The notes beneath the pieces were generated by a model. It worked only from the letters and a program-made list of their open reading frames with translations, had not been told where the DNA came from and made no database searches. Shown piece after piece: positions 1,034 through 19,172 of a stretch of 20,880 nt of DNA. Made by a program: the position numbers and the translations under genes. Positions within the stretch are counted from its first letter, which is position 1; every line of letters starts with the position of its first letter. This DNA is from a virus: IMG/VR virus record IMGVR_UViG_3300021964_000692, positions 1 to 20,880 of that record, one strand, 5' to 3'.

Positions 1034-1243
1034 TTAGCTAAGAGCAGCACCAACAGCAGTTACCCAAGCAGCACCTGTGTTGATTACGATGCAATACTCG
1101 TTGTTGCCCGCGCCGTTGTCGCTGACCATATAAGCTGTTCCAACAGCAACATCGCCAAAAGCTGGCAGATTTGCGGTAGTTACAACGGGGATTTGGAAAC
1201 CAGCGTTTGAACGTACTGGTCCTGAGAAAGTAGATAAAGCCAT
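1034..1243 (-). CDS. Short Ala/Val-rich probable structural protein
   Basis: This 69-aa protein reads FQIPVVTTANLPA, then AVGTAYMVSDNGAGNNEYCIVINTGAAWVTAVG. The arrangement (a xLPA turn, a strand, a D-N-G turn, then a strand ending near a Trp) resembles a short domain seen in many phage fibre or decoration proteins, where it reads roughly LPsA..G.xxyVsD...xxaysdG.xW. Here it stands alone as the whole protein. It is the first gene after the capsid terminator; CAGGAG lies at a normal distance from the ATG and a small hairpin lies in its leader. No catalytic residues are visible. A structural role is inferred. Confidence 0.65.
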   Translation of the reverse strand: MALSTFSGPVRSNAGFQIPVVTTANLPAFGDVAVGTAYMVSDNGAGNNEYCIVINTGAAWVTAVGAALS

Positions 1244-1269
1244 TTAGATCTCCTGTCGTGGCTAGTGTC

Positions 1270-1286
1270 AGCCCCACAATGGGACT
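1270..1286 (-). promoter_or_regulatory. Leader hairpin ahead of the post-capsid gene group
   Basis: On the minus strand AGTCCCA-TTG-TGGGGCT forms a 7-bp stem (one G-U pair) with a 3-nt loop, about 27 nt upstream of the ATG at 1243. It is bracketed by TGACA repeats. No U-tract follows, so it is not a second terminator. An RNA processing site or a stabilising 5' structure is possible. A TATACT box at about 1301-1306 could start transcription here, but I see no matching -35. Confidence 0.35.
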
Positions 1287-1311
1287 GTCAGGAATAAAGA
1301 TTAGTATACAC

Positions 1312-3383: not shown

Positions 3384-4268
3384 TTAATCCTTCACATACT
3401 TTGCATATTCTTCAAGCGGAACATTCAGACGTTTCGCAATTGATATTTGCGAAGGAGTCAACTTAACTGTTCTGCGCCCCTTGGATGACGACTTAGAAGC
3501 CGTGGACTCAGCAGAAGCGACTCTGGGTCCCGCATCCCGTCTTGAGTTCTGAAACTTGTGTGGAAACTCAACACGGACTCTGCGATCTAACTCAGTATAG
3601 TACTCATCGGACGTTGGGTCAAACCCCTCATCCTCAATTAATTGACGATGTATGCCAAAAGCAGCATATGTCATGGTCTGATCTTGCCCAAACCAGTTGT
3701 TCTTTTCCGCCCAAGCCTCAGCTTTTGGATCTGGCCTAGCCGGCGCCGCTCTTTGTGGAGCTTGTGCTGGGACTTCTTGAGGAGCTTGTTGACGGGCGGG
3801 TGCTGCCTCATTACGTTGTTTGATTTGATCGTAGCGAGACCGCTCCATGGCAAGACGACTGATGTTTTCTTGCGCCTCAAACATGGCGTCAACATCACCC
3901 TCGTCATGAGCTTTTCTGTAAGCTTCTTTTGCTGCTATCACCTGAGACTCTAACCGCGTCCCAAACTCACCAACATAAGACTCATCTAATTTTGTTAGAC
4001 GATGCTGTAGCTCATCATTTTGTTTTTTTACCGCTTCAGCGTACTCAATAGCCGCCTGTCTCTGCCGCTCTTCTTCACGATACTTACTTGTAAGCTTACG
4101 AATACGGCGCTGAACAGACTCGGAATAATTCTCTAATTCATCATCATCGTCCTTAGACTCTGCTTGGTCTTCCGCCTTGAGCTCTTCCTTTTGCTCTTCA
4201 ACCTCACCACCTTCTTCGTCCTCGGCAATAACCTCTAGTTCTTCTTTTTCGGGTAGTTCTTCTTGCAT
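3384..4268 (-). CDS. Capsid assembly scaffold protein
   Basis: This 294-aa protein has the usual scaffold architecture. Residues 1-55 are strongly acidic (runs of E and D). Residues about 55-165 form a charged heptad-rich helix suited to a coiled coil (SVQRRIRKLTSKYREEERQ ... NDELQHRLTKLDES). Residues 165-190 are a Pro/Ala/Gln linker (APARQQAPQEVPAQAPQRAAP). The C-terminal basic region ends in a small helix-turn-helix-like element (RRTVKLTPSQISIAKRLNVPLEEYAKYVKD). Scaffolds bind the coat protein through such a basic C-terminal helical piece and leave the procapsid before DNA filling. Its place between portal and coat genes fits. The ATG is preceded by GGAG within the last codons of the co-chaperonin gene. 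No protease domain is fused to it. Confidence 0.85.
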   Translation of the reverse strand: MQEELPEKEELEVIAEDEEGGEVEEQKEELKAEDQAESKDDDDELENYSESVQRRIRKLTSKYREEERQRQAAIEYAEAVKKQNDELQHRLTKLDESYVGEFGTRLESQVIAAKEAYRKAHDEGDVDAMFEAQENISRLAMERSRYDQIKQRNEAAPARQQAPQEVPAQAPQRAAPARPDPKAEAWAEKNNWFGQDQTMTYAAFGIHRQLIEDEGFDPTSDEYYTELDRRVRVEFPHKFQNSRRDAGPRVASAESTASKSSSKGRRTVKLTPSQISIAKRLNVPLEEYAKYVKD

Positions 4269-4269
4269 A

Positions 4270-4701
4270 CTAAGCTCCGTATGTTTTTATATCGTCTGGA
4301 TCGACGATGGTTGCGATGACTTCATCATCGTTAATAATCCGGACTTCGCCACCCTCAATCTGGAATCGAGAACCAGCATACCTTCCGATACATACCCAAT
4401 CACCCTCAGAACACCACGGTCCAGCCTCGCCAAACTTATCCGCGTCCTTATATGCCAAAGGTCCTACCTTCAGTACATAAGCTACGACAGTGGCTCGTGC
4501 CTCACGCTCTCTTGCTTGATCAGGTACATAAACCCCACCTTCAGTCTTCTCACGACCCATATACGGCATGACGAGCAAACGCCAACCAGTGGGTTGCGGA
4601 ATTCTTTCTTTTAGGGTTTTTTGTTTTGCAGCCTCTTCGGCTTTCTTTTTTGCCTCACGTTGCGCGAGGATGTAGTCAGGTACTATCAGAGTCGTCGTCA
4701 T
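4270..4701 (-). CDS. Phage-encoded GroES-like co-chaperonin (Hsp10)
   Basis: From MTTTLIVPDYIL this is a 143-aa protein. After a charged N-terminal helix (about residues 8-33) comes a Cpn10-like beta barrel: PTGWRLLVMPYMG, then a flexible loop REKTEGGVYVPDQARERE equivalent to the GroES mobile loop (the GGVYV block replacing the GroEL-binding GGIVL), then ATVVAYVLKVGP and EGDWVCIGRYAGSRFQIEGGEVRIINDDEVIATI. The last segment matches the GroES VGDxVxF...YG..V...xEEVLIMxExDILAI pattern. It probably caps host GroEL during folding of phage proteins; the neighbouring scaffold and coat genes make the coat protein the likely client, as for T4 gp31. I use ATG 4701, which has AGAAGG upstream. The longer frame to 4764 lies inside the preceding gene and has no ribosome site. 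Confidence 0.85.
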   Translation of the reverse strand: MTTTLIVPDYILAQREAKKKAEEAAKQKTLKERIPQPTGWRLLVMPYMGREKTEGGVYVPDQAREREARATVVAYVLKVGPLAYKDADKFGEAGPWCSEGDWVCIGRYAGSRFQIEGGEVRIINDDEVIATIVDPDDIKTYGA

Positions 4702-8223: not shown

Positions 8224-10620
8224 TCACTGTCCACGGTTCCTTGCTAGATTAGCCTGAGTATTGATGCGATAGACGTTTACTTCATTACGATCATCGGCGA
8301 TACCTTGCTGTATCTGCATGCGTTGCATAGCCAGATCAGCGGCCTGCTGTAGTTTGGCCTGATCAATCTGGAAGTCCATGACGTCATTTTGCATCTTACG
8401 TTGAATTTCAACTTGATCATTTTGCAGTTCCTGTTGACGGATCTGAACAAGAGGATCTTGTTGTTGGGCTGTCTCTAACAATGGTGCAAGCTGTTCTAAG
8501 GTGTCTGCAATCTGCTGTGCTATAGCAGCATCTACAGCTTCTGTAGGCAATTGAGGGACTGGCTCCCCAACCATCTGAGATTTTTGAATTGCCTGCTTGA
8601 ACACTTCTTCAACAATATCTCTAGCAAACAAGGACACATGCTCCTGAATATGCGCCTGCAAGATAAGAAAAGCTTGCGGGTTAGCCTGAATAGCTGGCGA
8701 CTGAAGCAATGACGCATGCACACGAATATGTGCACGATGGTCTTGCTCTTTAAATGCCTGACTAGGGGCACCTTTAAGAGCCATTGAGTTTTCCATTCCC
8801 GGATCCATGGGCTGTGGTGGCTGCGGTGCCGGCAGAATTGCATCAATGTTCTTTACATCCAATGCGTCATACATCCGGCGATAGGCTTCATACTGGTTGT
8901 GAAGCTGCGGTGCTGCCTGAGCCAACTGAAGCTGAGTCTGCGCCAAAGACAAACGCTGGGACATTGAGAAGATGTTCGGGTCAGACACTGGTAAGATGTC
9001 AATTCGCCCATCAAAGTCCTGCTGCATAATCTCTGGTGGGATATTCTGCCCAACAAAGTAAGGATAAGGCATCGGGTTACTGGCAAAAACCTCCGCCAGC
9101 ATTCTAAACTCTTGCTTCTGTGCGTAATGCATACGCTTGTGAATGCTAGAGATTACCTTTGAACCCTGCTCAATTAATGCAACCGTAGTCCCAACAGGAG
9201 CCTGTGAGTTAACATCGGCTACCTTTGAGTCTGCCACCTGTGCAAAACGACGACCAGAATCTACAATTACACCAAGAAGCTGGGCAAGTGTAGCTGACGG
9301 CTCTTTGTAAGGCAGCGGGATAATAGAGTTTTTAAGATCGCCGCCGGGAGCGTCAATGTCACGAAACTCGCCGGGGGACAACGGCTCATCGTCATTACGA
9401 ATACGAACGCCCCTAGCTTTAAATCCAGCCGGCAGGTTCGACAAAGTTCCCGCATCAATTAACTGACGCAGAATTGAGGTCGCCGCACGAGACAATCCAC
9501 CGATTGTGTGCAGAAGACCAAAGCCGTAGAACCCAAAACCCGGCAAAAACTTATAGTGTGTGAAATATTGTCTGCGACGCCTTAAGGGATCCGCTTCACG
9601 ATAGCTTCTAACAAGGCTAAGAATTTCTCCAGAACCTTCATCAATGGTAACAATATAAGGTAGCCGAATGCCCGTGGGATCGCCCTGCATGTCAGTATCT
9701 TCAAACCCTTCAAGGTCGAGATCGACATGGACTTCATATAATGTATAGACATCGTCCCCATAATTAGGACGTATTCCCGTAAGCTCGTTAGCACGGTTAT
9801 GAATTTTTCCTTCATCTTCGCTCTCTTCAACTGGTGAAATATTTACGTCTTTGTAAATCCCTGCAAACTGCAGTTTTCTAATTTCGTTTTCAGTCATGCG
9901 GAAAACATGAGTTACCCGTTCTGCGGTTCGTAAATCGGACGCAGTGTAGGGTACAATCAAATCTTCTGCAGGCACAAATTTTGACACAGCGCGTTGTTTT
10001 GTGGGGTCAAAGTATACTTTCTTAAACGTAGAACCAGTCAGCGGCAGATAGTAAAGCATCTGATCAGTGTCTGGATCGAACTCTTCCATTACCTCAGTAA
10101 TCTGATAGTTCATAAAATCTTCAATACGCTGCGCCTGATCTTCCGTCTCTCTGGTTGGTGTGCCAAGAATTTGTGTCTTAACTGGACCACCAGAAGGCAG
10201 CATCTCTTTATACGACTGCGCCTGAAACTGTGTTACTGCTTCAGACAACAATGGATGATGCACACCAGACGCGCCTAAGAAAGGCTCGTTGCGCTCTTCG
10301 TAGTTAATACCAAGAAGGCCAAGACCTTTTGAAATAGCTTCTTCCCACTCATCGCGTGACTCTTGATCTTCTTTAATCTTAGCCCGTAAATCAGACGAAA
10401 TCTCCCGCAGGTCAGTGTCATCCAAAACCTCAGCAAGGTTGGCATTATGGTCGTACTCCTCAGTTTGGACCTCGACCATCTCTTCTTCACCTGCAATCTC
10501 AATGCCCGGTGGTAGCTCGTCCTCAAAACCCGGAAGTTCAACCTGCATTTCTTCAGGCATTAAGTCAGATGGGCCGCCCGGGCCCATTGCCATGTCAACC
10601 ATTTGTGGGGGTAGTGCCAT
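8224..10620 (-). CDS. Portal protein (large, P22-like size)
   Basis: This 798-aa protein forms the dodecameric DNA gate at the capsid vertex. Residues 1-60 are acidic and Met/Pro-rich. The core starts about residue 75 (DLRAKIKEDQESRDEWEEAISKGLGLLGI). It continues with PFLGASGVHHPLLSEAVTQFQAQSYKEMLP, DFMNYQITEVMEEFDPDTDQMLYYLPLTGSTFKKVYFDP and FVPAEDLIVPYTA, which together are the typical wing/clip start of long portals. The segment GFGLLHTIGGLSRAATSILRQLIDAGTLSN and KVISSIHKRMHYAQKQEFRML are the stem/crown-type helices. The C-terminal 180 residues are Gln-rich and helical (QIADTLEQLAPLLETAQQQ, QQELQNDQVEIQRKMQNDV), likely a barrel or coiled coil. Its ATG overlaps the preceding stop by one base and uses AAAGGAAC encoded in that gene's tail. 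Confidence 0.9.
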   Translation of the reverse strand: MALPPQMVDMAMGPGGPSDLMPEEMQVELPGFEDELPPGIEIAGEEEMVEVQTEEYDHNANLAEVLDDTDLREISSDLRAKIKEDQESRDEWEEAISKGLGLLGINYEERNEPFLGASGVHHPLLSEAVTQFQAQSYKEMLPSGGPVKTQILGTPTRETEDQAQRIEDFMNYQITEVMEEFDPDTDQMLYYLPLTGSTFKKVYFDPTKQRAVSKFVPAEDLIVPYTASDLRTAERVTHVFRMTENEIRKLQFAGIYKDVNISPVEESEDEGKIHNRANELTGIRPNYGDDVYTLYEVHVDLDLEGFEDTDMQGDPTGIRLPYIVTIDEGSGEILSLVRSYREADPLRRRRQYFTHYKFLPGFGFYGFGLLHTIGGLSRAATSILRQLIDAGTLSNLPAGFKARGVRIRNDDEPLSPGEFRDIDAPGGDLKNSIIPLPYKEPSATLAQLLGVIVDSGRRFAQVADSKVADVNSQAPVGTTVALIEQGSKVISSIHKRMHYAQKQEFRMLAEVFASNPMPYPYFVGQNIPPEIMQQDFDGRIDILPVSDPNIFSMSQRLSLAQTQLQLAQAAPQLHNQYEAYRRMYDALDVKNIDAILPAPQPPQPMDPGMENSMALKGAPSQAFKEQDHRAHIRVHASLLQSPAIQANPQAFLILQAHIQEHVSLFARDIVEEVFKQAIQKSQMVGEPVPQLPTEAVDAAIAQQIADTLEQLAPLLETAQQQDPLVQIRQQELQNDQVEIQRKMQNDVMDFQIDQAKLQQAADLAMQRMQIQQGIADDRNEVNVYRINTQANLARNRGQ

Positions 10621-10670
10621 TAAAATGTTCCTTTGAATGTTCCGCCACGAGCTTTCATAACAGCGCCGCC
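10614..10670. repeat. 57-bp direct repeat, copy 1 (portal start / small-gene tail)
   Basis: This copy matches 10889-10945 at 56 of 57 positions (difference at 10635 versus 10910). It covers the last 16 codons and stop of the 91-aa gene, the embedded ribosome binding site and the first codons of the portal gene. The second copy holds the same parts of the neighbouring gene pair, which indicates duplication or gene conversion. Confidence 0.95.
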
Positions 10671-10895
10671 TTTAGCTCTGCCGAGTTCTTTGTCGTGCTT
10701 TTTTCTAAGATTTCGTGCTTTGTTGCCCATGTAACCTAAAGCGCCCACGCCTAAAGCAGCCGTGCCGTGAGCAAGGTAATTAGCTATATCTTGTGCATGT
10801 GGCCCCACAGCCATAAACGCATCCATTGCAGCAGAGGTTTTTTTGATGTTCTTATCTTTTTTCTTTTCGGGAGCTTTTGGTTTTCTAGGTGCCAT
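10620..10895 (-). CDS. Small basic protein with possible membrane segment and shared C-terminal tail
   Basis: This 91-aa protein has a Lys/Pro-rich head (MAPRKPKAPEKKKDKNIKK). A moderately hydrophobic region follows (ANYLAHGTAALGVGALGYMGN) that could be a membrane or amphipathic helix, then a basic stretch (KARNLRKKHDKELGRAK) and the tail GGAVMKARGGTFKGTF. That tail is identical to the end of the gene upstream of it. The stop and the portal ATG overlap by one base (TAATG), and its start similarly overlaps the preceding stop. No family recognised. Small size, strong charge and location between terminase and portal would suit a minor virion or DNA-packaging accessory protein. Confidence 0.65.
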   Translation of the reverse strand: MAPRKPKAPEKKKDKNIKKTSAAMDAFMAVGPHAQDIANYLAHGTAALGVGALGYMGNKARNLRKKHDKELGRAKGGAVMKARGGTFKGTF

Positions 10896-10945
10896 TAAAA
10901 TGTTCCTTTAAATGTTCCGCCACGAGCTTTCATAACAGCGCCGCC
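10889..10945. repeat. 57-bp direct repeat, copy 2
   Basis: Second copy of the 10614-10670 repeat, offset by exactly 275 bp with a single mismatch. It encodes the identical C-terminal tail of the 103-aa gene plus the first two codons of the 91-aa gene (ATG GCA). The flanks on both sides are unrelated between the copies, so the repeat is bounded by the tail motif and the following start codon. Confidence 0.95.
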
Positions 10946-11206
10946 GTATTTTCTAGTATCCTCTTCAGAATAATAGTAAACATCTCGGTCACGCATTGTC
11001 TTGCCCTTAGACGCATCCGAGGTTAGACTATCCTTCTTTAACGCTCTTTTAGTTTTTTTATCTGTAGGACCAAATTTTTTGTTGTGTTCTTTACGAGCCG
11101 CTACTTCTTTTTTACCCTCGTCTGACCGTCTGTATCGTTTCGCATCCATACCTTTTCTTATCCGAACACCTGCGGGATGCTTAAATTTTTTACCGTCATC
11201 GCTCAT
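10895..11206 (-). CDS. Small highly basic protein with shared C-terminal tail
   Basis: This 103-aa protein is almost entirely charged (FKHPAGVRIRKGMDAKRYRRSDEGKKEVAARKEHNKKFG; KKTKRALKKDSL) and probably disordered. It ends KYGGAVMKARGGTFKGTF, matching its downstream neighbour exactly over the last 16 residues. No domain is recognised. Nucleic-acid binding is plausible from charge alone. Both ends use one-base stop/start overlaps. Its own start is served by AAGGGAG encoded within the last codons of the preceding gene. Confidence 0.65.
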   Translation of the reverse strand: MSDDGKKFKHPAGVRIRKGMDAKRYRRSDEGKKEVAARKEHNKKFGPTDKKTKRALKKDSLTSDASKGKTMRDRDVYYYSEEDTRKYGGAVMKARGGTFKGTF

Positions 11207-11403
11207 TAGAATACTCCCTTGAATCTCTGTGGACGGGCAATGGGGCTGAAGCCCTTGATCATCCCGCCCGCTGCTTTGCTGTTAGCAGATTTGCTCCATG
11301 CTTCCCACTGCTTATCCGTAAGCTTGGTCACATCTTCTTGCGCTATTTGCCTTATTTGTTTCATTGTACGTCCGTCAATGCGAACTTTGTCTTTGTCAGA
11401 CAT
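11206..11403 (-). CDS. 65-aa protein with related Gly-rich C-terminal tail
   Basis: The protein starts MSDKDKVRIDGRTMKQIRQIAQEDVTKLTDKQWEAWSKSANSK (described by parts: a short helix DGRTMKQIRQIAQEDV, then a helix with LTDKQWEAWSKSA). It ends AAGGMIKGFSPIARPQRFKGVF in which GGMIK and RFKGVF echo the GGAVMK and TFKGTF elements of the next two proteins. Function is unknown. The final codons carry AAGGGAG, the ribosome binding site of the following overlapping gene. AGGAGC near the end of the large upstream gene serves its own start. Confidence 0.65.
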   Translation of the reverse strand: MSDKDKVRIDGRTMKQIRQIAQEDVTKLTDKQWEAWSKSANSKAAGGMIKGFSPIARPQRFKGVF

Positions 11404-14400: not shown

Positions 14401-14792
14401 GCATATAACGCGCCGGGAGCCAGAAACCTGCCCGCCATCTCTGGACGAAGTTCCCCCTGTTCATCAAAGAACTCGTCAGAAAGCTCTACACCAGCTTTTG
14501 CTGCAAGGCCCGATGCACCAAAATCTTTTGCAAACTGACTTACATTTTCCCTGACTTTAGGATTTGTGGCATAAAGAACGGGGCTTGAAATGACTGAAGC
14601 AGGCACCGCTAAATCCCCCAGTAACCCGGGAATGCCAAAAACCTCTTCCTTAACAAGACCAGTAGCCATCTGGGATAGCCGGTCCACCATACCTGATCCA
14701 GCCTCAGTGAGATTTTGCATGCGCTTGGAAAAACCAGCGGCTCTTTCCGCCTGTTGCTCATCTATACTTTTATCTATATAGCGCTTTGCCAT
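11403..14792 (-). CDS. Large 1129-aa probable internal virion protein
   Basis: This is the largest gene, between terL and portal. The N-terminus is helical and partly hydrophobic (GIPGLLGDLAVPASVISSPVLYATNP, residues about 50-80), followed by a Pro-rich linker. Residues about 425-465 (HDYFKDDISGFFGQVRFSIV ... RRYMSLNEFQADLI) resemble the block HVRF...G...LfIxExQSDxHQ found in very large marine phage proteins. Residues about 868-895 (FALRAAVREAEKLGLDGVVVPDWADMSVM) resemble its usual partner, a helix plus a GxDxVxxx strand. Here they are separated by roughly 400 residues. The end, YNKGGHVDIRGGIGAMARSVM, is Gly-rich. Size and neighbours suggest an ejection or internal head protein. ATG 14792 overlaps the terL stop by one base. 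Confidence 0.65.
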   Translation of the reverse strand: MAKRYIDKSIDEQQAERAAGFSKRMQNLTEAGSGMVDRLSQMATGLVKEEVFGIPGLLGDLAVPASVISSPVLYATNPKVRENVSQFAKDFGASGLAAKAGVELSDEFFDEQGELRPEMAGRFLAPGALYAKVATLAPKVGRGLQDLVSGLRDNDFFPPNGPQLNPVTVAPDPRTTFPMDKAPVPETSVMLNEARGTGSTDARLVDLISKGDINTPEDIKSFFPDFRILNPEDFPSQDKFEYAEKSAQYKLINQYRASPKEKKIKKTLAPNPETYMISEEGASMIGDAHSPLLDVLKKMDIPPGGIAGSSVIEQVGKQLSNRRNIELDQYGLVDYFSKNADKKFSREELIETFDTVAPSIDVKTVMETDLQTAGVPSLAYQTPDGVTDAAALDGHGVIVFGNRKGAQVGGVKLKGVPGHDYFKDDISGFFGQVRFSIVPDPYNPDSGRRYMSLNEFQADLIRGLTDLAEGRDTSYARRMIQDQRVPLTPGEKLALKEIDTSLEKSNYSQMEKTATQLDEEARQIQGKGEYRLGLRADGAPSRQRAQSRNKFDIALRALNEGLADRKTPEQVEEFLLRLLGDDNTTDNTILRDGLTEMWRRSNATAVSRLQAMSDAGIGSAMPGMLRKMIKEKDTLAEFQKEALFDELQQIENVFDMNRVLEDATRYSEDLTKAFLKGVEGDNSSIVIGLSGKKVQNARSQLSRDEVLAALPDGWYEKTVNDLVEKYKATDKQIGSGKFPYKNMRGYSRVNNIGTNNTRRTAEAVVNDVLDYMGNAPGTTLTGARTLGTNFKNWMDKKNYFNAAEKRLSEIDGLRPSDIDIQEAKQDFYTDVLQKSGIENVADVLQLRDKTIRSGGTSGYIQDVPFKTQSAFNQFALRAAVREAEKLGLDGVVVPDWADMSVMPGRLDSTEFTMGTNTDVTIPIYTDVATKIDEAVKKRTDFHTQEGSYYIPDENYLPVKDIKEIIDSIEDPKQKEAIVGLMPSNTSSDQFAKTTLKSYARGEELGEYYPDIAEDLVDVGVMKNTIQGLLDTGREQTKKYRAFKTNYGDVLDAGLQRLVSEGVTVENKPFGLYNPRENKIEPFGDIKRPARVIELTGKTKDIAKKVPSAYNKGGHVDIRGGIGAMARSVM

Positions 14793-16267
14793 TAATAGTA
14801 TTCTCTCTTACGAGGTGGGCCCCAGTCTTCAAGCTCTTCGCCGTCCAAACTAATGAAGCCGCCCTGCCGAAACCGCATAACAGCCATCGTCATACTGTCG
14901 CAGTAATCGTCATGATCTCCATTTGGAAACGAGGCAACTTCTTCTATTACTTCTTCAGCGAATTTACGTTCAGGATACCATACTTTTCCAGATTCGAATA
15001 TAGGGGCAACCATATGCATACGGGTTGTTTTGTCCAACCCACCCCCGCCTTTGCGCCGGCCCGGAGCAAAGGTAGTAACCGGCAAATTCTGCAGACGTAA
15101 CTCGTCCGCCAGCGGCATACCAGAAGCCTTCGCCTCAATTAACATCATGTCCGGTTCCCAATACTCATTTTCCTCTAAAGCAATCGCTTTTAACTCAGGA
15201 AAATTCCAGCGACCCTTCTTCGCATCAAGCAAGATCAGATGCTGATCCCCGTCCTCACGAGGCTGAAACACACCCCATGTAGTAATAGCAGAATAGTCAG
15301 CCGTCTCTTTTTTGCTGTACGCCGTATCGTAAGACTGAATCACATACTCTAGCTTAGGGGTGTCTTCTCGCTCCCACACGTTCCACCACTCACGTTTCAC
15401 TAACGCCGTAGCATCCGATGTAGGATTTTGTTGCCACTGGGCATTCCACTTTCCGGGAGACAGTGACGCCTTTACCTTAAGTAGCTCGTCCTTGTTCCAG
15501 AATTCAGGCCACAGTGGTTCCCCCGACGGCATGATTGCAGGGAATTCTACTACCTCCCACTGATCCGCCATTGTGTCCATGCCCTGCGCCTGCAGTAACC
15601 TGCCCGTAATGTCTTTCTTAGACCACCGCGTCTGGACAATAATGATGGCACCGCCCGGTTGAAGACGCTGTCTCGGACCAGATGTGTACCACTCCCACGC
15701 ATTGTCATAAGCACTTGGGGAAAGTGCGTCCTGCTCCGAGTGCGGATCGTCAATAATTAACAAATCCGCGCCACGACCAGTCATTGCAGCGCCCACCCCA
15801 GCCGCAAAATATTCCCCGCCAGCGCTAGTCTCCCAACGACCCGCTGCTTGGCTATCCGCTTTTAGATCTGTCTTAGGAAAAATATCTCTATATATAGGGT
15901 CCGCTATCAAGTCACGAACCTTACGACCAAACCTTACAGCAAGTTCCGTATTCATGGTAGCTTGAATAATTTTTAACTTTGGATTCCGGCCCAAAAACCA
16001 GCTAGGCATAAGATACGAAGCAAATTCTGATTTAGAATGCCGGGGTGGCATGTTTACAATCAAGCGTTTTAATTCACCACGCGCAATTTTCTCTAGCTTT
16101 TCTGCAATGATAATATGATGCCGGCCTTCAATGAAGCCATCATATACATGATGGACATACGGCATAAACTGTTCTTGGGCTTTATCGCGTGTCTCTAGGC
16201 GCTTGCGCTGTTCTTCCAGCAGCAAAACTTCCTGTAACACTTCTTTTGGCAGAGCATCTAGGTTCAT
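14792..16267 (-). CDS. terL: Terminase large subunit (ATPase and nuclease)
   Basis: From MNLDALPKEVLQE this is 491 aa, the usual length. The motor pumps DNA into the procapsid and cuts it. The N-terminal ATPase has RLIVNMPPRHSKSE (Walker A-type, residues about 70-81), GRGADLLIIDDPHS (Walker B, about 166-177) and VQTRW (coupling motif). The C-terminal RNase H-like nuclease shows YVIQSYDTAYS (D314), LIEAKASG (E378) and DDYCDSM (D457), the expected acidic triad. I prefer ATG 16267; a TTG at 16303 would extend the protein by 12 residues but would overlap the promoter region. A TATAAT box and flanking repeats lie upstream. Its small subunit partner is not adjacent but lies at 19531-20121. The stop overlaps the next start (TAATG). 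Confidence 0.95.
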   Translation of the reverse strand: MNLDALPKEVLQEVLLLEEQRKRLETRDKAQEQFMPYVHHVYDGFIEGRHHIIIAEKLEKIARGELKRLIVNMPPRHSKSEFASYLMPSWFLGRNPKLKIIQATMNTELAVRFGRKVRDLIADPIYRDIFPKTDLKADSQAAGRWETSAGGEYFAAGVGAAMTGRGADLLIIDDPHSEQDALSPSAYDNAWEWYTSGPRQRLQPGGAIIIVQTRWSKKDITGRLLQAQGMDTMADQWEVVEFPAIMPSGEPLWPEFWNKDELLKVKASLSPGKWNAQWQQNPTSDATALVKREWWNVWEREDTPKLEYVIQSYDTAYSKKETADYSAITTWGVFQPREDGDQHLILLDAKKGRWNFPELKAIALEENEYWEPDMMLIEAKASGMPLADELRLQNLPVTTFAPGRRKGGGGLDKTTRMHMVAPIFESGKVWYPERKFAEEVIEEVASFPNGDHDDYCDSMTMAVMRFRQGGFISLDGEELEDWGPPRKREYY

Positions 16268-16300
16268 GGTCCAAACGATAATACATTCGAATGAATTTAT

Positions 16301-16328
16301 CAATCAGTGTATTATACAGCCAATCAGT
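16301..16328 (-). promoter_or_regulatory. Late-operon promoter: TATAAT flanked by ACTGATTG direct repeats
   Basis: On the minus strand TATAAT lies at 16316-16311, about 44 nt before the terL ATG. It is the centre of an 11-bp palindrome (TGTATTATACA, 16308-16318). Two ACTGATTG repeats flank it at 16328-16321 and 16308-16301, 20 bp apart, i.e. about two helical turns. A third copy lies at 16392-16385. No good -35 hexamer is present at 17 bp. This suggests an activator-dependent or repressor-controlled promoter for the whole leftward packaging and structural cluster. Confidence 0.6.
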
Positions 16329-16426
16329 AACACCACACCCCAAAAATAAGGGGGTCCCCCCTAACGCGATGCCAAGCTGGTTGCCAATCAGTGGGAGTAA
16401 CCCCCGAGAAGAGACACGGAACGTGT

Positions 16427-16458
16427 GCCACAAACTCCGTTTGTGGCCTCGCTTTTTT
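16427..16458 (+). terminator. Hairpin with delayed T-run in copy A
   Basis: The 9-bp perfect stem GCCACAAAC/GTTTGTGGC with a TCC loop is followed by CTCGC and then TTTTTT. The five-base gap before the T-run makes it a weaker intrinsic terminator than usual. In copy A no rightward gene lies upstream, so here it may block stray antisense transcription out of terL or act as an RNA or DNA structure. Confidence 0.5.
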
Positions 16459-16470
16459 CAAGTCAGAAAT

Positions 16471-16524
16471 TTGACGTGTCAGAATCTTGACGTGTCAGAA
16501 TCTTGACGTGTCAAATAGATGACA
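16471..16524 (+). promoter_or_regulatory. Operator-like iteron array TGACGTGTCA, period 16 bp
   Basis: Three copies of the near-palindrome TTGACGTGTCA start at 16471, 16487 and 16503, separated by GAATC-type spacers. GTCA (16463-16466) precedes the array and TGAC (16520-16523) follows it, so TGAC/GTCA half-sites alternate throughout. Such arrays are typical binding sites for a phage repressor or replication initiator. The wHTH-like protein encoded next is an obvious candidate ligand, but this is inference. Confidence 0.65.
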
Positions 16525-16531
16525 AAATAAT
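16503..16531 (+). promoter_or_regulatory. Sigma-70-type promoter for the rightward regulator gene
   Basis: TTGACG (16503-16508), a 17-bp spacer and AATAAT (16526-16531) match five of six positions in each hexamer. The -35 is formed by the last iteron, so a protein bound to the array would occlude RNA polymerase. The expected start of transcription is about 16538, leaving a leader of nearly 80 nt before the ATG at 16616. In copy B the same -35 exists but the -10 position is degraded. Confidence 0.65.
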
Positions 16532-16567
16532 TGTTGTGGTCTGTCCTAGTAGGGGCTATTGTTGATT

Positions 16568-16603
16568 ATGGGATTTATCCCATGTTGTTAACGCCATTAA
16601 CAA
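16568..16603 (+). promoter_or_regulatory. Two perfect inverted repeats in the regulator leader
   Basis: ATGGGATTTATCCCAT (16568-16583) is a 16-bp palindrome with 7-bp arms. It is followed one base later by TTGTTAACGCCATTAACAA (16585-16603), with 7-bp arms and a 5-nt loop that ends two bases before the GGAGG ribosome site. The first contains the TGGGAT motif found upstream of two other rightward genes. The second could fold in RNA next to the ribosome site or be a DNA operator. Confidence 0.6.
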
Positions 16604-17129: not shown

Positions 17130-17321
17130 ATGGCAGCAAGCATAGCAAAAGACGGAACAAAGTTTGTGGAGAAGCCACCCAAGACAGCCATGGGCTATAA
17201 AGACTATGGCACAGGCATCCCAGACAGGCTCGCAGGAGAGCCAAGCAGCTCACCAATCTTCGATCACTACAGCTTTCATGGCTGGCCTGACATGAGTGAC
17301 GAACAAACATGGGACGAGTGA
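17130..17321 (+). CDS. 63-aa hypothetical protein
   Basis: I start the protein at ATG 17130 (MAASIAKDGTKFVEK) because GGAGG lies five bases ahead; the upstream in-frame ATG at 17100 lies inside the presumed terminator. The sequence is polar and acidic toward the end, with KPPKTAMGYKDYGTGIPDRLAGEPSS and SFHGWPDMSDEQTWDE. No domain, membrane segment or cysteine pattern is present. Small acidic proteins in early phage regions often bind host proteins, but there is no specific evidence for that here. The gene is followed by a T-rich stretch and the next ribosome site. Confidence 0.55.
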   Translation: MAASIAKDGTKFVEKPPKTAMGYKDYGTGIPDRLAGEPSSSPIFDHYSFHGWPDMSDEQTWDE

Positions 17322-17349: not shown

Positions 17350-17562
17350 ATGACATATGTATCTTGTGACACCAAAACATACGAGGCGTTTGAAAAAGCG
17401 TGTGATAGAAAACTACAAAGCATAATCGGCTTTGGCATCAACGATCTAGCTGATGCAACATGGCGCGACTATTATGATGCTGGTATGTCACCAATCGATG
17501 CAATCCACTGTGCTAACGATGACGCATGGGATGGTGAAATAAGTGAATTCCTACACGGTTAA
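17350..17562 (+). CDS. 70-aa acidic protein with DLxDxxxxDxYDxGxSPxDA motif
   Basis: The protein is MTYVSCDTKTYEAFEKACDRK, then a helix into GINDLADATWRDYYDAGMSPIDAIHCANDD and an acidic end. ATG 17350 is chosen because GGAG at 17340-17343 is spaced six bases ahead; ATG 17344 is too close. The pattern F...C...L......G(I/L)xxxDLxDxxxxDxYDxGxSPxDA resembles a class of short phage and plasmid proteins of unknown function that I know from several hosts, though I cannot give the family name with certainty. It is predicted to be two helices joined by the DLAD...D turn. It is followed by a strong terminator. Confidence 0.6.
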   Translation: MTYVSCDTKTYEAFEKACDRKLQSIIGFGINDLADATWRDYYDAGMSPIDAIHCANDDAWDGEISEFLHG

Positions 17563-17633: not shown

Positions 17634-17729
17634 GACACGGAACGTGTGCCACAAACTCCGTTTGTGGCCTCGCTTTTTTCAAGTCAGAAATTTGACGTGT
17701 CAGAATTTTGACGTGTCAAATAGATGACA
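17634..17729. repeat. Long direct repeat copy B: hairpin plus two 16-bp iterons
   Basis: This is the second copy of the 16413-16524 module, in the same orientation, with two TTGACGTGTCA units instead of three. It keeps the ACACG...CGTGT repeat, the GCCACAAAC hairpin with its T-run (hairpin 17648-17668) and the AAATAGATGACA end. After 17729 the copies diverge: copy A continues AAATAAT (-10) and copy B CCATGAACC. Confidence 0.97.
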
Positions 17730-17746
17730 CCATGAACCATGTTCCG

Positions 17747-17760
17747 TGTGCTATGATACA
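17747..17760 (+). promoter_or_regulatory. Extended -10 promoter for the 100-aa gene
   Basis: TGCTATGAT (17749-17757) matches the extended -10 form TGnTATaAT at all but one position. No good -35 lies 17 bp upstream, as is usual for extended -10 promoters. It lies about 40 nt upstream of the ATG at 17794 and just downstream of the copy B iterons, which could act as an upstream operator. Confidence 0.5.
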
Positions 17761-17793: not shown

Positions 17794-18096
17794 ATGTTTC
17801 AACTTTCATATGTTTTGTTTATCGATGAGCGGTCTTATCGTGGCGAGCGCGAGTTTTTCACGCGGCAGTTTGCTACAGAGGCGGAAGCCCGCGCATTCGA
17901 GCTCGGGCTTCACGAGGGCTCGCGTTGGGATGTTCTCGACACTGATTCATGGCACGATGCCTTGCCGCGCGATGAGTCTATTTCGCTCGCTGATCACCAT
18001 CAGGCTTTTCTCGACATGTGGTCGGAGCGCGGCGAACGCGGCGAATGGGCGCATCTTTCCCCGTGCGATCCGCGCCATGAATCTGAATCACTATAA
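17794..18096 (+). CDS. 100-aa hypothetical protein, charged, GC-rich
   Basis: The protein starts MFQLSYVLFIDERSYRGEREFFTRQFATEAEARAFELGLHEG (a strand, then a basic strand, then an amphipathic helix ATEAEARAFELGL). It continues with SRWDVLDTDSWHDAL and a highly charged end. I use ATG 17794 with TTGGAG ahead of it; the TTG at 17779 is part of that ribosome site. The beta-beta-alpha start could belong to a small alpha/beta domain, but no family is recognised. The gene looks richer in G+C, with many CG-ending codons, than its neighbours, which may point to separate acquisition. It is closed by a UUCG-tetraloop terminator. Confidence 0.6.
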   Translation: MFQLSYVLFIDERSYRGEREFFTRQFATEAEARAFELGLHEGSRWDVLDTDSWHDALPRDESISLADHHQAFLDMWSERGERGEWAHLSPCDPRHESESL

Positions 18097-18443: not shown

Positions 18444-19172
18444 ATGAAACCACAAAATTCGATCATATACAAAGGCGCATCCGAAATAGACGGCTCGCCC
18501 ATTGTCGTTATTGCTATTGTGAAAAGCAGCAATCGCAAGACCGGCGACATGGTGCAAACATATATATTGAACGATAACGGCCTTGATCCTATGGAAAATA
18601 ACAAGCTTGGCAACGATTTTTCAATATGCGGGGATTGTAAACACAGAGGCGAAGCATTAACGCCGGCGCATCCGGATTTTGGAAAGTATAAAATGGCAAA
18701 GGGGCGGACATGTTACGTTGCTTTGTTCCAAGGTGTTTTGATCACTTGGAAACATTATATGAAAGGTGGCTATCCAACGGCGCAAGGTCATGATGCTATA
18801 GCCGCATTGGGTGCGGGTCGAATGGTTCGGGTCGGTACATACGGAGACGGCGCAGCCGTTCCAAGTTATATTTGGGACAGTCTTTTATCACAAGCTGAGG
18901 GTCATACAGGATACAGCCATCAATCAGGCTTGGTCGAAGTTGATCCAATGATTTATATGATCAGCGCGGACACAGAAGCAGAAGCCCGCCAAGCTTGGCA
19001 ATCAGGCAAGCGGACATTTCGCGTTATACAGAAAACGGAAGAACTTATAAAAGGCTCTGAGGCTTTATGCCCCGCCAGCAAGGAAGCAGGCCGGCGGGCA
19101 ACGTGCGACACTTGCAAGTTATGCGCCGGCGCATCAGTCAAAGCAAAATCAATCGCAATCGTTCAACACTAA
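18444..19172 (+). CDS. Cysteine-rich phage/plasmid protein of unknown function
   Basis: This 242-aa protein begins with SEIDGSPIVVIAI, then SSNRKTGDMVQTYIL. Next comes SICGDCKHRG (C62, C65), with RTCYV (C90). The middle reads AGRMVRVGTYGDGAAVPSYIWDSL and GHTGYSHQSG. The C-terminus has ALCPASKEAGRRATCDTCKLCAG (C209, C221, C224, C227). I recognise this order (NxKTGxMxQTxIL, CGDCxHRG, CYV, RxGTYGDxAAVP, TGYxHQ, CPAS.....C..C.LC) from proteins in phages and plasmids of many Proteobacteria, where no function is assigned. The cysteine sets suggest two metal sites or an iron-sulfur cluster. The GTYGD and TGYxHQ blocks could be active-site loops of an alpha/beta barrel. A radical-type enzyme is a guess. 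It has its own leader with an operator-like motif and a strong terminator. Confidence 0.78.
   Translation: MKPQNSIIYKGASEIDGSPIVVIAIVKSSNRKTGDMVQTYILNDNGLDPMENNKLGNDFSICGDCKHRGEALTPAHPDFGKYKMAKGRTCYVALFQGVLITWKHYMKGGYPTAQGHDAIAALGAGRMVRVGTYGDGAAVPSYIWDSLLSQAEGHTGYSHQSGLVEVDPMIYMISADTEAEARQAWQSGKRTFRVIQKTEELIKGSEALCPASKEAGRRATCDTCKLCAGASVKAKSIAIVQH

Follow-up and report, generated by a model that had tools for sequence, protein, structure and literature searches.

Tandem GTCA-N6-TGAC palindromes before two putative phage promoters as probable operators of a dimeric regulator

In phages, operator arrays such as lambda OR and OL consist of several dimer sites that overlap or flank promoters. Outside phages, one described box has the same half-site frame as the sites considered here, the FleQ box GTCAAT-N2-ATTGAC (PMC10723142), and an FlrA-like protein has the predicted site yGTCA-N6-TGACr (PMC4641369). 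Arrays of inverted repeats also occur at origins of replication; for instance, ori-lambda holds four iterons, each an imperfect 19-bp inverted repeat, which sit inside the initiator gene and next to an AT-rich region (PMC7466680).

The locus described here lies in IMG/VR virus record IMGVR_UViG_3300021964_000692, a stretch of 20,880 bp that was analysed as a whole and is called the window below. It carries two arrays of GTCA-N6-TGAC palindromes. These share the 4-6-4 palindrome of the FleQ and FlrA boxes, which often occur more than once at a promoter according to the passages concerned. However, those boxes are read by enhancer-binding regulators that control motility and biofilm genes, and no such gene was seen in the window phage; moreover, stacking at 16 bp is absent from the passages of PMC10723142 and PMC4641369, and the inner bases differ, since the seven window units share the GTCA-N6-TGAC frame while the complete inner T and A of the FleQ box are found in none. 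The origin of lambda, as that source describes it with bound O protein, is alike in having four neighbouring inverted-repeat sites in a phage, but the window arrays are intergenic, duplicated and attached to promoter candidates, and among the features of a lambda-type origin the window has iteron-like units with a flank that is only mildly AT-rich. Compared with OR and OL, the window units abut without a spacer and are unrelated in sequence. The BetI box of alphaproteobacteria (ATTGACG*CGTCAAT) contains TTGAC-N2-GTCAA, which resembles a parse of the first array as TGAC-GT-GTCA, though comparative data reject TGAC-N2-GTCA as the window unit. Adjoining sites in a regulatory intergenic region have a possible precedent in Paenibacillus, beside genes that are presumably of LacI type, where two 16-bp TGTCA-N6-TGACA palindromes with the same half-sites abut between genes; these are mostly limited to two units and have other inner bases, and the window has no LacI-type gene. 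An operator with several sites is of an ordinary kind; its stacking is unusually tight here, and the spread over unrelated phages was unexpected.

Two arrays and their repeat unit

The setting of the arrays is as follows, P1 and P2 being the candidate promoters discussed below.

14792-16267, minus strand: large terminase subunit gene terL (phrog_38), divergent from the P1 operon
16427-16457, plus strand: terminator-like hairpin (16427-16447) and T run before array 1
16462-16523, no strand assigned: array 1, four GTCA-N6-TGAC units with 2-nt GT linkers and a 16-bp period, assessed by shuffles; units, read directly, at 16462-16475, 16478-16491, 16494-16507 and 16510-16523
16510-16523, plus strand: promoter-proximal unit of array 1, GTCAAATAGATGAC, identical in 4/4 aligned rows and in L007
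16616-17047, plus strand: gene of a 143-aa protein, the first after P1 and a candidate binder
17130-17321 and 17350-17562, plus strand: two short ORFs of the P1 operon, the latter phrog_519-like
17648-17678, plus strand: terminator-like hairpin (17648-17668) and T run before array 2, an identical copy within a duplicated module
17683-17728, no strand assigned: array 2, three GTCA-N6-TGAC units (17683-17696, 17699-17712 and 17715-17728) with linkers as in array 1
17794-18096, plus strand: first ORF after P2, without a family match
18444-19172, plus strand: gene of a phrog_2554 protein downstream of P2, its function not assigned by the family

Array 1 lies in the interval that separates terL from the 143-aa gene and reads GTCAGAAATTTGAC-GT-GTCAGAATCTTGAC-GT-GTCAGAATCTTGAC-GT-GTCAAATAGATGAC, while array 2 follows the short 143-aa operon and precedes another ORF and the phrog_2554 gene. 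A preliminary description of the window had placed an array at 16463-16523; this array is real and far beyond chance, though it begins one base earlier, and both its exact 16-bp spacing and three copies of TTGACGTGTCA (TGAC-GT-GTCA), at 16471, 16487 and 16503, are present as described. Array 2 was absent from that description. GTCA-N6-TGAC occurs 7 times in the window, whereas 1000 shuffles that preserve dinucleotides have a mean of 0.30 and a maximum of 3; of tandem pairs with a 16-bp spacing the window has 5 and none of these shuffles has any. The two modules share 73 identical bp, and in G004, a relative of 55,711 bp, all 7 occurrences of the palindrome are confined to the two arrays (0.83 expected). 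The hairpin of the module was considered as a mobile element and dropped, being seen in only five contigs, all of one group.

Elsewhere in the window there is an Rfam match to Mu-gpT-DE RNA near the capsid genes (1241-1293, minus strand; 68.7 bits against a gathering threshold of 49). Two adjacent small proteins (10620-11206, minus strand) share a C-terminal GGAVMKARGGTFKGTF tail, which the tail of a third (11206-11403) loosely resembles.

The repeat unit can be determined from relatives of the 143-aa gene. Seven were detected, of which five share 92% identity with it, one 78% and one 69%. Four of these have the tight form of both arrays. In L007, which is the same contig as L083, the last two units before P1 are visible at the contig edge as GTCAGTAATTTGAC-9-GTCAAATAGATGAC with a 23-bp spacing, and the array before P2 is tight, with a 16-bp spacing. 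Three units re-form with other linkers before P1 in L088 (GTCAAACGTTTGAC-6-GTCAGTAATTTGAC-9-GTCAAATAGATGAC) and in L089 (GTCAAACATTTGAC-6-GTCAGTAATTTGAC-9-GTCAAATAGATGAC), the linkers being 6 and 9 nt compared to 2 in the window and the spacings 20 and 23 bp; before P2, L089 keeps one unit and L088 has no array. Since GTCA-N6-TGAC is kept in L088, L089 and L007 although the linkers change, it is the unit, and the TGAC-GT-GTCA first taken for one is the junction of abutting units, which is lost wherever linkers vary; we therefore dropped the TGAC-N2-GTCA palindrome. Nor does a strict 16-bp period hold as a rule, as close relatives have spacings of 20 and 23 bp before P1.

The bases flanking the unit extend it. 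Array contigs supplied 245 distinct units. On those sides of a unit where the next one is absent or more than 17 bp away, the base preceding GTCA is Y in 101/118 cases and the base following TGAC is R in 102/119, and the linkers of 16-bp pairs are R-Y in 78/92. These frequencies indicate that the full site is YGTCA-N6-TGACR, a symmetric 16-bp palindrome, so that the 16-bp period is the length of one unit. Spacings in array contigs from other phages range from 14 to 19 bp and include 16 bp, the share of which is biased because the contigs were preselected for a 16-bp pair. Repeated symmetric sites of this kind fit a dimer. As 16 bp is about 1.5 turns, successive sites lie on opposite faces of the helix, as had been pointed out before, with alternate sites (32 bp) back in phase. 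The preliminary description took this to suggest a binder that wraps DNA or forms filaments, or an initiator; of wrapping or filaments the sequences give no sign, nor any against them.

Candidate promoters, module exchange and a candidate binder

Three promoter candidates were considered.

16503-16531, plus strand: the promoter first described, TTGACG (16503-16508), 17-bp spacer, AATAAT (16526-16531)
16524-16583, plus strand: conserved core promoter region P1, from the alignment, with boxes picked by eye: candidate -35 TTGTGG (16534-16539), spacer 17, candidate -10 TATTGT (16557-16562)
17749-17757, plus strand: candidate extended -10 of P2, TGC TATGAT, separated by 23 nt from the final unit of array 2

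After the unit at 16510-16523 about 60 bp are nearly invariant across the four aligned rows, whereas the upstream side of the array gives no alignment between lineages. The candidate -35 of P1 is not invariant (TTGCAG in L087). A palindrome, ATGGGATTTATCCCAT, lies within the conserved region at 16568-16583, with arms identical in the aligned rows. At P2, L089 has TGC TACGAT and retains the 23-nt distance from the unit. The arrays thus keep a fixed position relative to the putative promoters, with the last unit centred near -52 at P1 and near -42 at P2 if these are placed correctly, ten bases or one turn apart.

The promoter first described, whose -35 overlaps the last array junction, is present in the window with 10 of 12 consensus bases, in a scan that gave 3 promoter-like sites compared to a mean of 2.3 in shuffles. 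Its -35 becomes ATGAAG in L088 and GCATGT in L089, so it is not the conserved one. An overlap with a -35 is no general feature of arrays either, for outward-facing TTGAC at the ends of arrays is not followed unusually often by a -10 hexamer: those with 5 of 6 matches at distances of 16-18 bp were found at 0, 0 and 2 of 95 ends.

The upstream parts of the modules tell of exchange. The window has one upstream sequence common to both modules, and L089 has a different one common to its own two (40 identical bases), with at most 9 identical bases upstream between the window and module 1 of L089. In L007 the modules are of differing type, loose (23 bp) before P1 and tight (16 bp) before P2. Sequence that is shared within a genome, differs between genomes and is mixed in L007 argues that modules are copied and swapped as blocks, whether by conversion inside one genome or by recombination of one phage with another.

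The preliminary description had proposed a regulatory array beside the gene of a candidate DNA-binding protein, which the present data support. The 143-aa protein has nothing reliable in Pfam or PHROGs; its best hint in Pfam is a weak match to the CI-repressor helix-turn-helix (E 0.045, below the cut-off). Its C-terminal half is strongly conserved in the alignment, and a structure model of low confidence (mean pLDDT 59.9) is helical, with helix-turn-helix-like residues at about 67-121, though a fold search of the model against the PDB gave no usable match (best E 0.62). A tblastn search with the protein against phages gave no hit. The family and GTCA-N6-TGAC units occur together in 7/7 relatives found, which may reflect plain descent because the seven are few lineages. 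The aligned protein rows of L083 and L084-L087 are identical and yet the spacing of the P1 array differs, so tight stacking would not be needed if this protein is the binder. No homologue is detectable in other array contigs, and so the family was rejected as a binder common to all arrays, barring repeated independent origins of the motif; the other array phages would then have either readers of their own or one host protein in common. The likeliest single reader in the window, which we name tentatively and at rather less than even confidence, is the 143-aa protein acting as an autoregulator; failing that, the sites would be read by a protein of the host or by a different one of the phage.

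Occurrence in other phages and in bacteria

Searching IMG/VR for a pair of tandem units spaced by 16 bp yielded 77 stretches, compared to 1 for a control with the same letters read backwards and hence the same composition. By nucleotide similarity these fall into 38 dissimilar contig groups (clustering gave 39, but L021 and L029 are one contig). Many contigs have more than two units, with up to 8 in one array and 13 in L156, and GC skew rises across the array in 22/32 loci, which are not all independent; among the loci of this comparison one place was entered twice (L049 and L158). Four GC-rich cases with two units (L009, L017, L032 and L058) may be unrelated or due to chance. The terminases of array contigs differ, some being of the phrog_38 type and others of the phrog_979/phrog_2 type, of which one has Acidovorax phage AP1 and Bordetella BPP-1 as its nearest relatives and another has Vibrio phages that we take to be T5-like. 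For two other array groups a search for the nearest phage, as a clue to the host, gave no match. The tandem element is recurrent in phages and patchily gained, and in the open-licence texts searched for the exact unit strings there was no phage paper on them.

No common helix-turn-helix regulator family could be named among array phages when 1132 ORFs from 26 record sets were compared all against all, most families being unannotated; those that could be named were terminase, portal, other structural proteins, polymerase and C5-methyltransferase, and a separate set of 1030 ORFs gave a similar picture. Two families recur near arrays, phrog_2554 in 3 groups (window 18444-19172) and GP88 (PF17338) in 6 groups (L036 10293-11075). 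Parallel motifs are seen between them by eye, and homology is not supported by hhalign (probability 0.5%, E 0.11). Both were rejected as array partners, as GP88 and phrog_2554 also occur in array-free terL relatives (2 and 5 of the best 80, respectively). In 4/40 representative loci an array has LexA-like GTTC-N7-GTTC boxes no more than 400 bp away. In L016, GTTC occurs about six times with an 11-bp period at 4513-4571, adjoining GTCA-N6-TGAC arrays, and LexA-like boxes are also near arrays in L008, L035 and L036.

In bacteria, tight tandem pairs are rare, with 45 stretches in the GTDB collection. Over half, 25/45, come from Paenibacillus, Cohnella and one Bacillus sp. (L107-L149) and consist of the intergenic TGTCA-N6-TGACA pair at 16 bp beside a sugar-binding-protein gene; the gene on the other side is presumably of LacI type, judging from the N-terminus in 19 of the 25. 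Four acidobacterial stretches adjoin one gene type that looks to us like flgB, a neighbour that recalls the FlrA-like site yGTCA-N6-TGACr and the FleQ box as given in the passages cited above.

A different picture emerges for relatives chosen by terL. The top annotated relatives of the window terminase are pelagiphage HTVC027P (60% identity), phage DSL-LC04 and phage 023Pt_psg01, and no array was found at one mismatch or fewer in these or in HTVC023P. Among the best 80 of 599 terL relatives (58-86% identity, 46/80 with more than 1.5 kb upstream) there is no array, even in the nine at 82-86%; 200 kb of sequence upstream of their terL genes contain 1 unit, where 2.6 are expected, and none of the 80 has the 143-aa gene. 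Conservation of the array together with terL was therefore dropped, and of the enrichment sought earlier in related genomes it is the unrelated phages that show it (77 vs 1), not the terL relatives. The same place is occupied otherwise elsewhere: L178 has a LexA-like GTTC-N7-GTTC, and L181 has two tandem TTCACGTTTCGTGAA palindromes with a 23-bp spacing (4139-4182), upstream of a good sigma-70-like promoter, TTGACT-17-CATAAT. From these sequences the place before terL looks like a regulatory slot filled by different operators in different phages.

Independently of the arrays, an element consisting of GGGGTTACTG, a C-rich run and TTGATAAATTCATT-N6-TATTATCRTTYGG (...TATTATCRTT) is conserved before terL, at 16268-16400 in the window and in L176, L178, L179, L181, L182 and L184; it is a candidate terL promoter or packaging signal.

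Possible roles of the arrays

We consider that the arrays are probably operators in tandem, bound by a dimeric helix-turn-helix regulator and serving two promoters in the block of genes that is transcribed away from terL. Each 14-bp GTCA-N6-TGAC palindrome would hold one dimer, and as neighbouring dimers would lie on opposite helix faces they could pack without clash and may fill the array jointly. Each array would set the activity of the putative promoter just downstream, P1 for the 143-aa operon and P2 for the phrog_2554 operon, both of which point away from terL. Either a repressor or an activator would fit a unit near -52 or -42.

The same arrays could instead be sites for a host regulator, recruited for phage promoters or serving as a decoy to sequester it. 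We consider this unlikely, though a tandem unit in 38 dissimilar groups with several terminase types and no shared regulator family is what one host reader could produce, FleQ and predicted FlrA-like boxes do have the frame in the passages at hand (PMC10723142, PMC4641369), and both the LexA-like boxes near 4/40 loci and arrays of up to 13 units agree with it. However, few bacterial genomes carry tight tandem pairs and most of the 45 stretches are the Paenibacillus/Cohnella site, the inner T and A of the FleQ box are mostly absent from the units of the window, and a pure decoy would not need the promoter-adjacent position that is fixed in the window lineage. A broader form of this idea, which we regard as doubtful, takes tight YGTCA-N6-TGACR arrays as an undescribed recurrent control element, which unrelated tailed phages would have acquired repeatedly close to the terminase end of the genome and which a single, widespread protein of the hosts would read. 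In this view the phages either recruit that reader at the divide between their gene blocks or titrate it, and the window's two arrays are swapped and copied between modules by recombination.

A replication origin, in which the units would be iterons for an initiator as for O on the lambda iterons and the DNA would melt nearby, is a fainter prospect still. Four abutting palindromes do resemble ori-lambda as described in part of PMC7466680, and the arrays of G004 lie at its cumulative GC-skew minimum, in line with the skew rise across the partly dependent loci; but this minimum is also the point where transcription diverges, which alone yields one. There are two arrays, each tied to a putative promoter, and beside array 1 no stretch is clearly AT-rich (GC about 0.37-0.40 compared to 0.47 for the window). 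No initiator-type gene was recognised among the Pfam and PHROGs annotations or in G004, and an origin would hardly be missing, as the array is, from the best 80 of 599 terL relatives.

That the arrays are a cos or pac site bound by the small terminase subunit is highly improbable. The array lies on the 5' side of terL in 14/15 and 8/10 groups, or 22/25 of those with terL in the locus (one-sided binomial about 8e-5, a bias that phage gene order makes easier), and terS is 2-3 kb away in the window. Against this, the unit accompanies unrelated terminases and no array is present in the best 80 of 599 terL relatives, 46 of which were covered for more than 1.5 kb upstream, the putative promoters point away from terL, and the element conserved before terL is another one. 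The varied operators in the slot before terL likewise speak for an operator rather than a packaging site and, less strongly, rather than an origin. An ordinary -35 box multiplied by local repeat expansion without a special binder is just as improbable: TTGACG-17-AATAAT is there, but the symmetric Y/R flanks, the units conserved at variable linkers, the loss of the -35 in L088 and L089 and the lack of a -10 excess at array ends all speak against it.

Whichever protein binds, the operator reading would matter beyond this phage. If one protein reads the palindrome in many unrelated phages, the arrays would be a shared handle with which hosts or phages time the phage gene blocks, and even with a separate binder in each phage they would show where regulation is centred in phage genomes with poor annotation.
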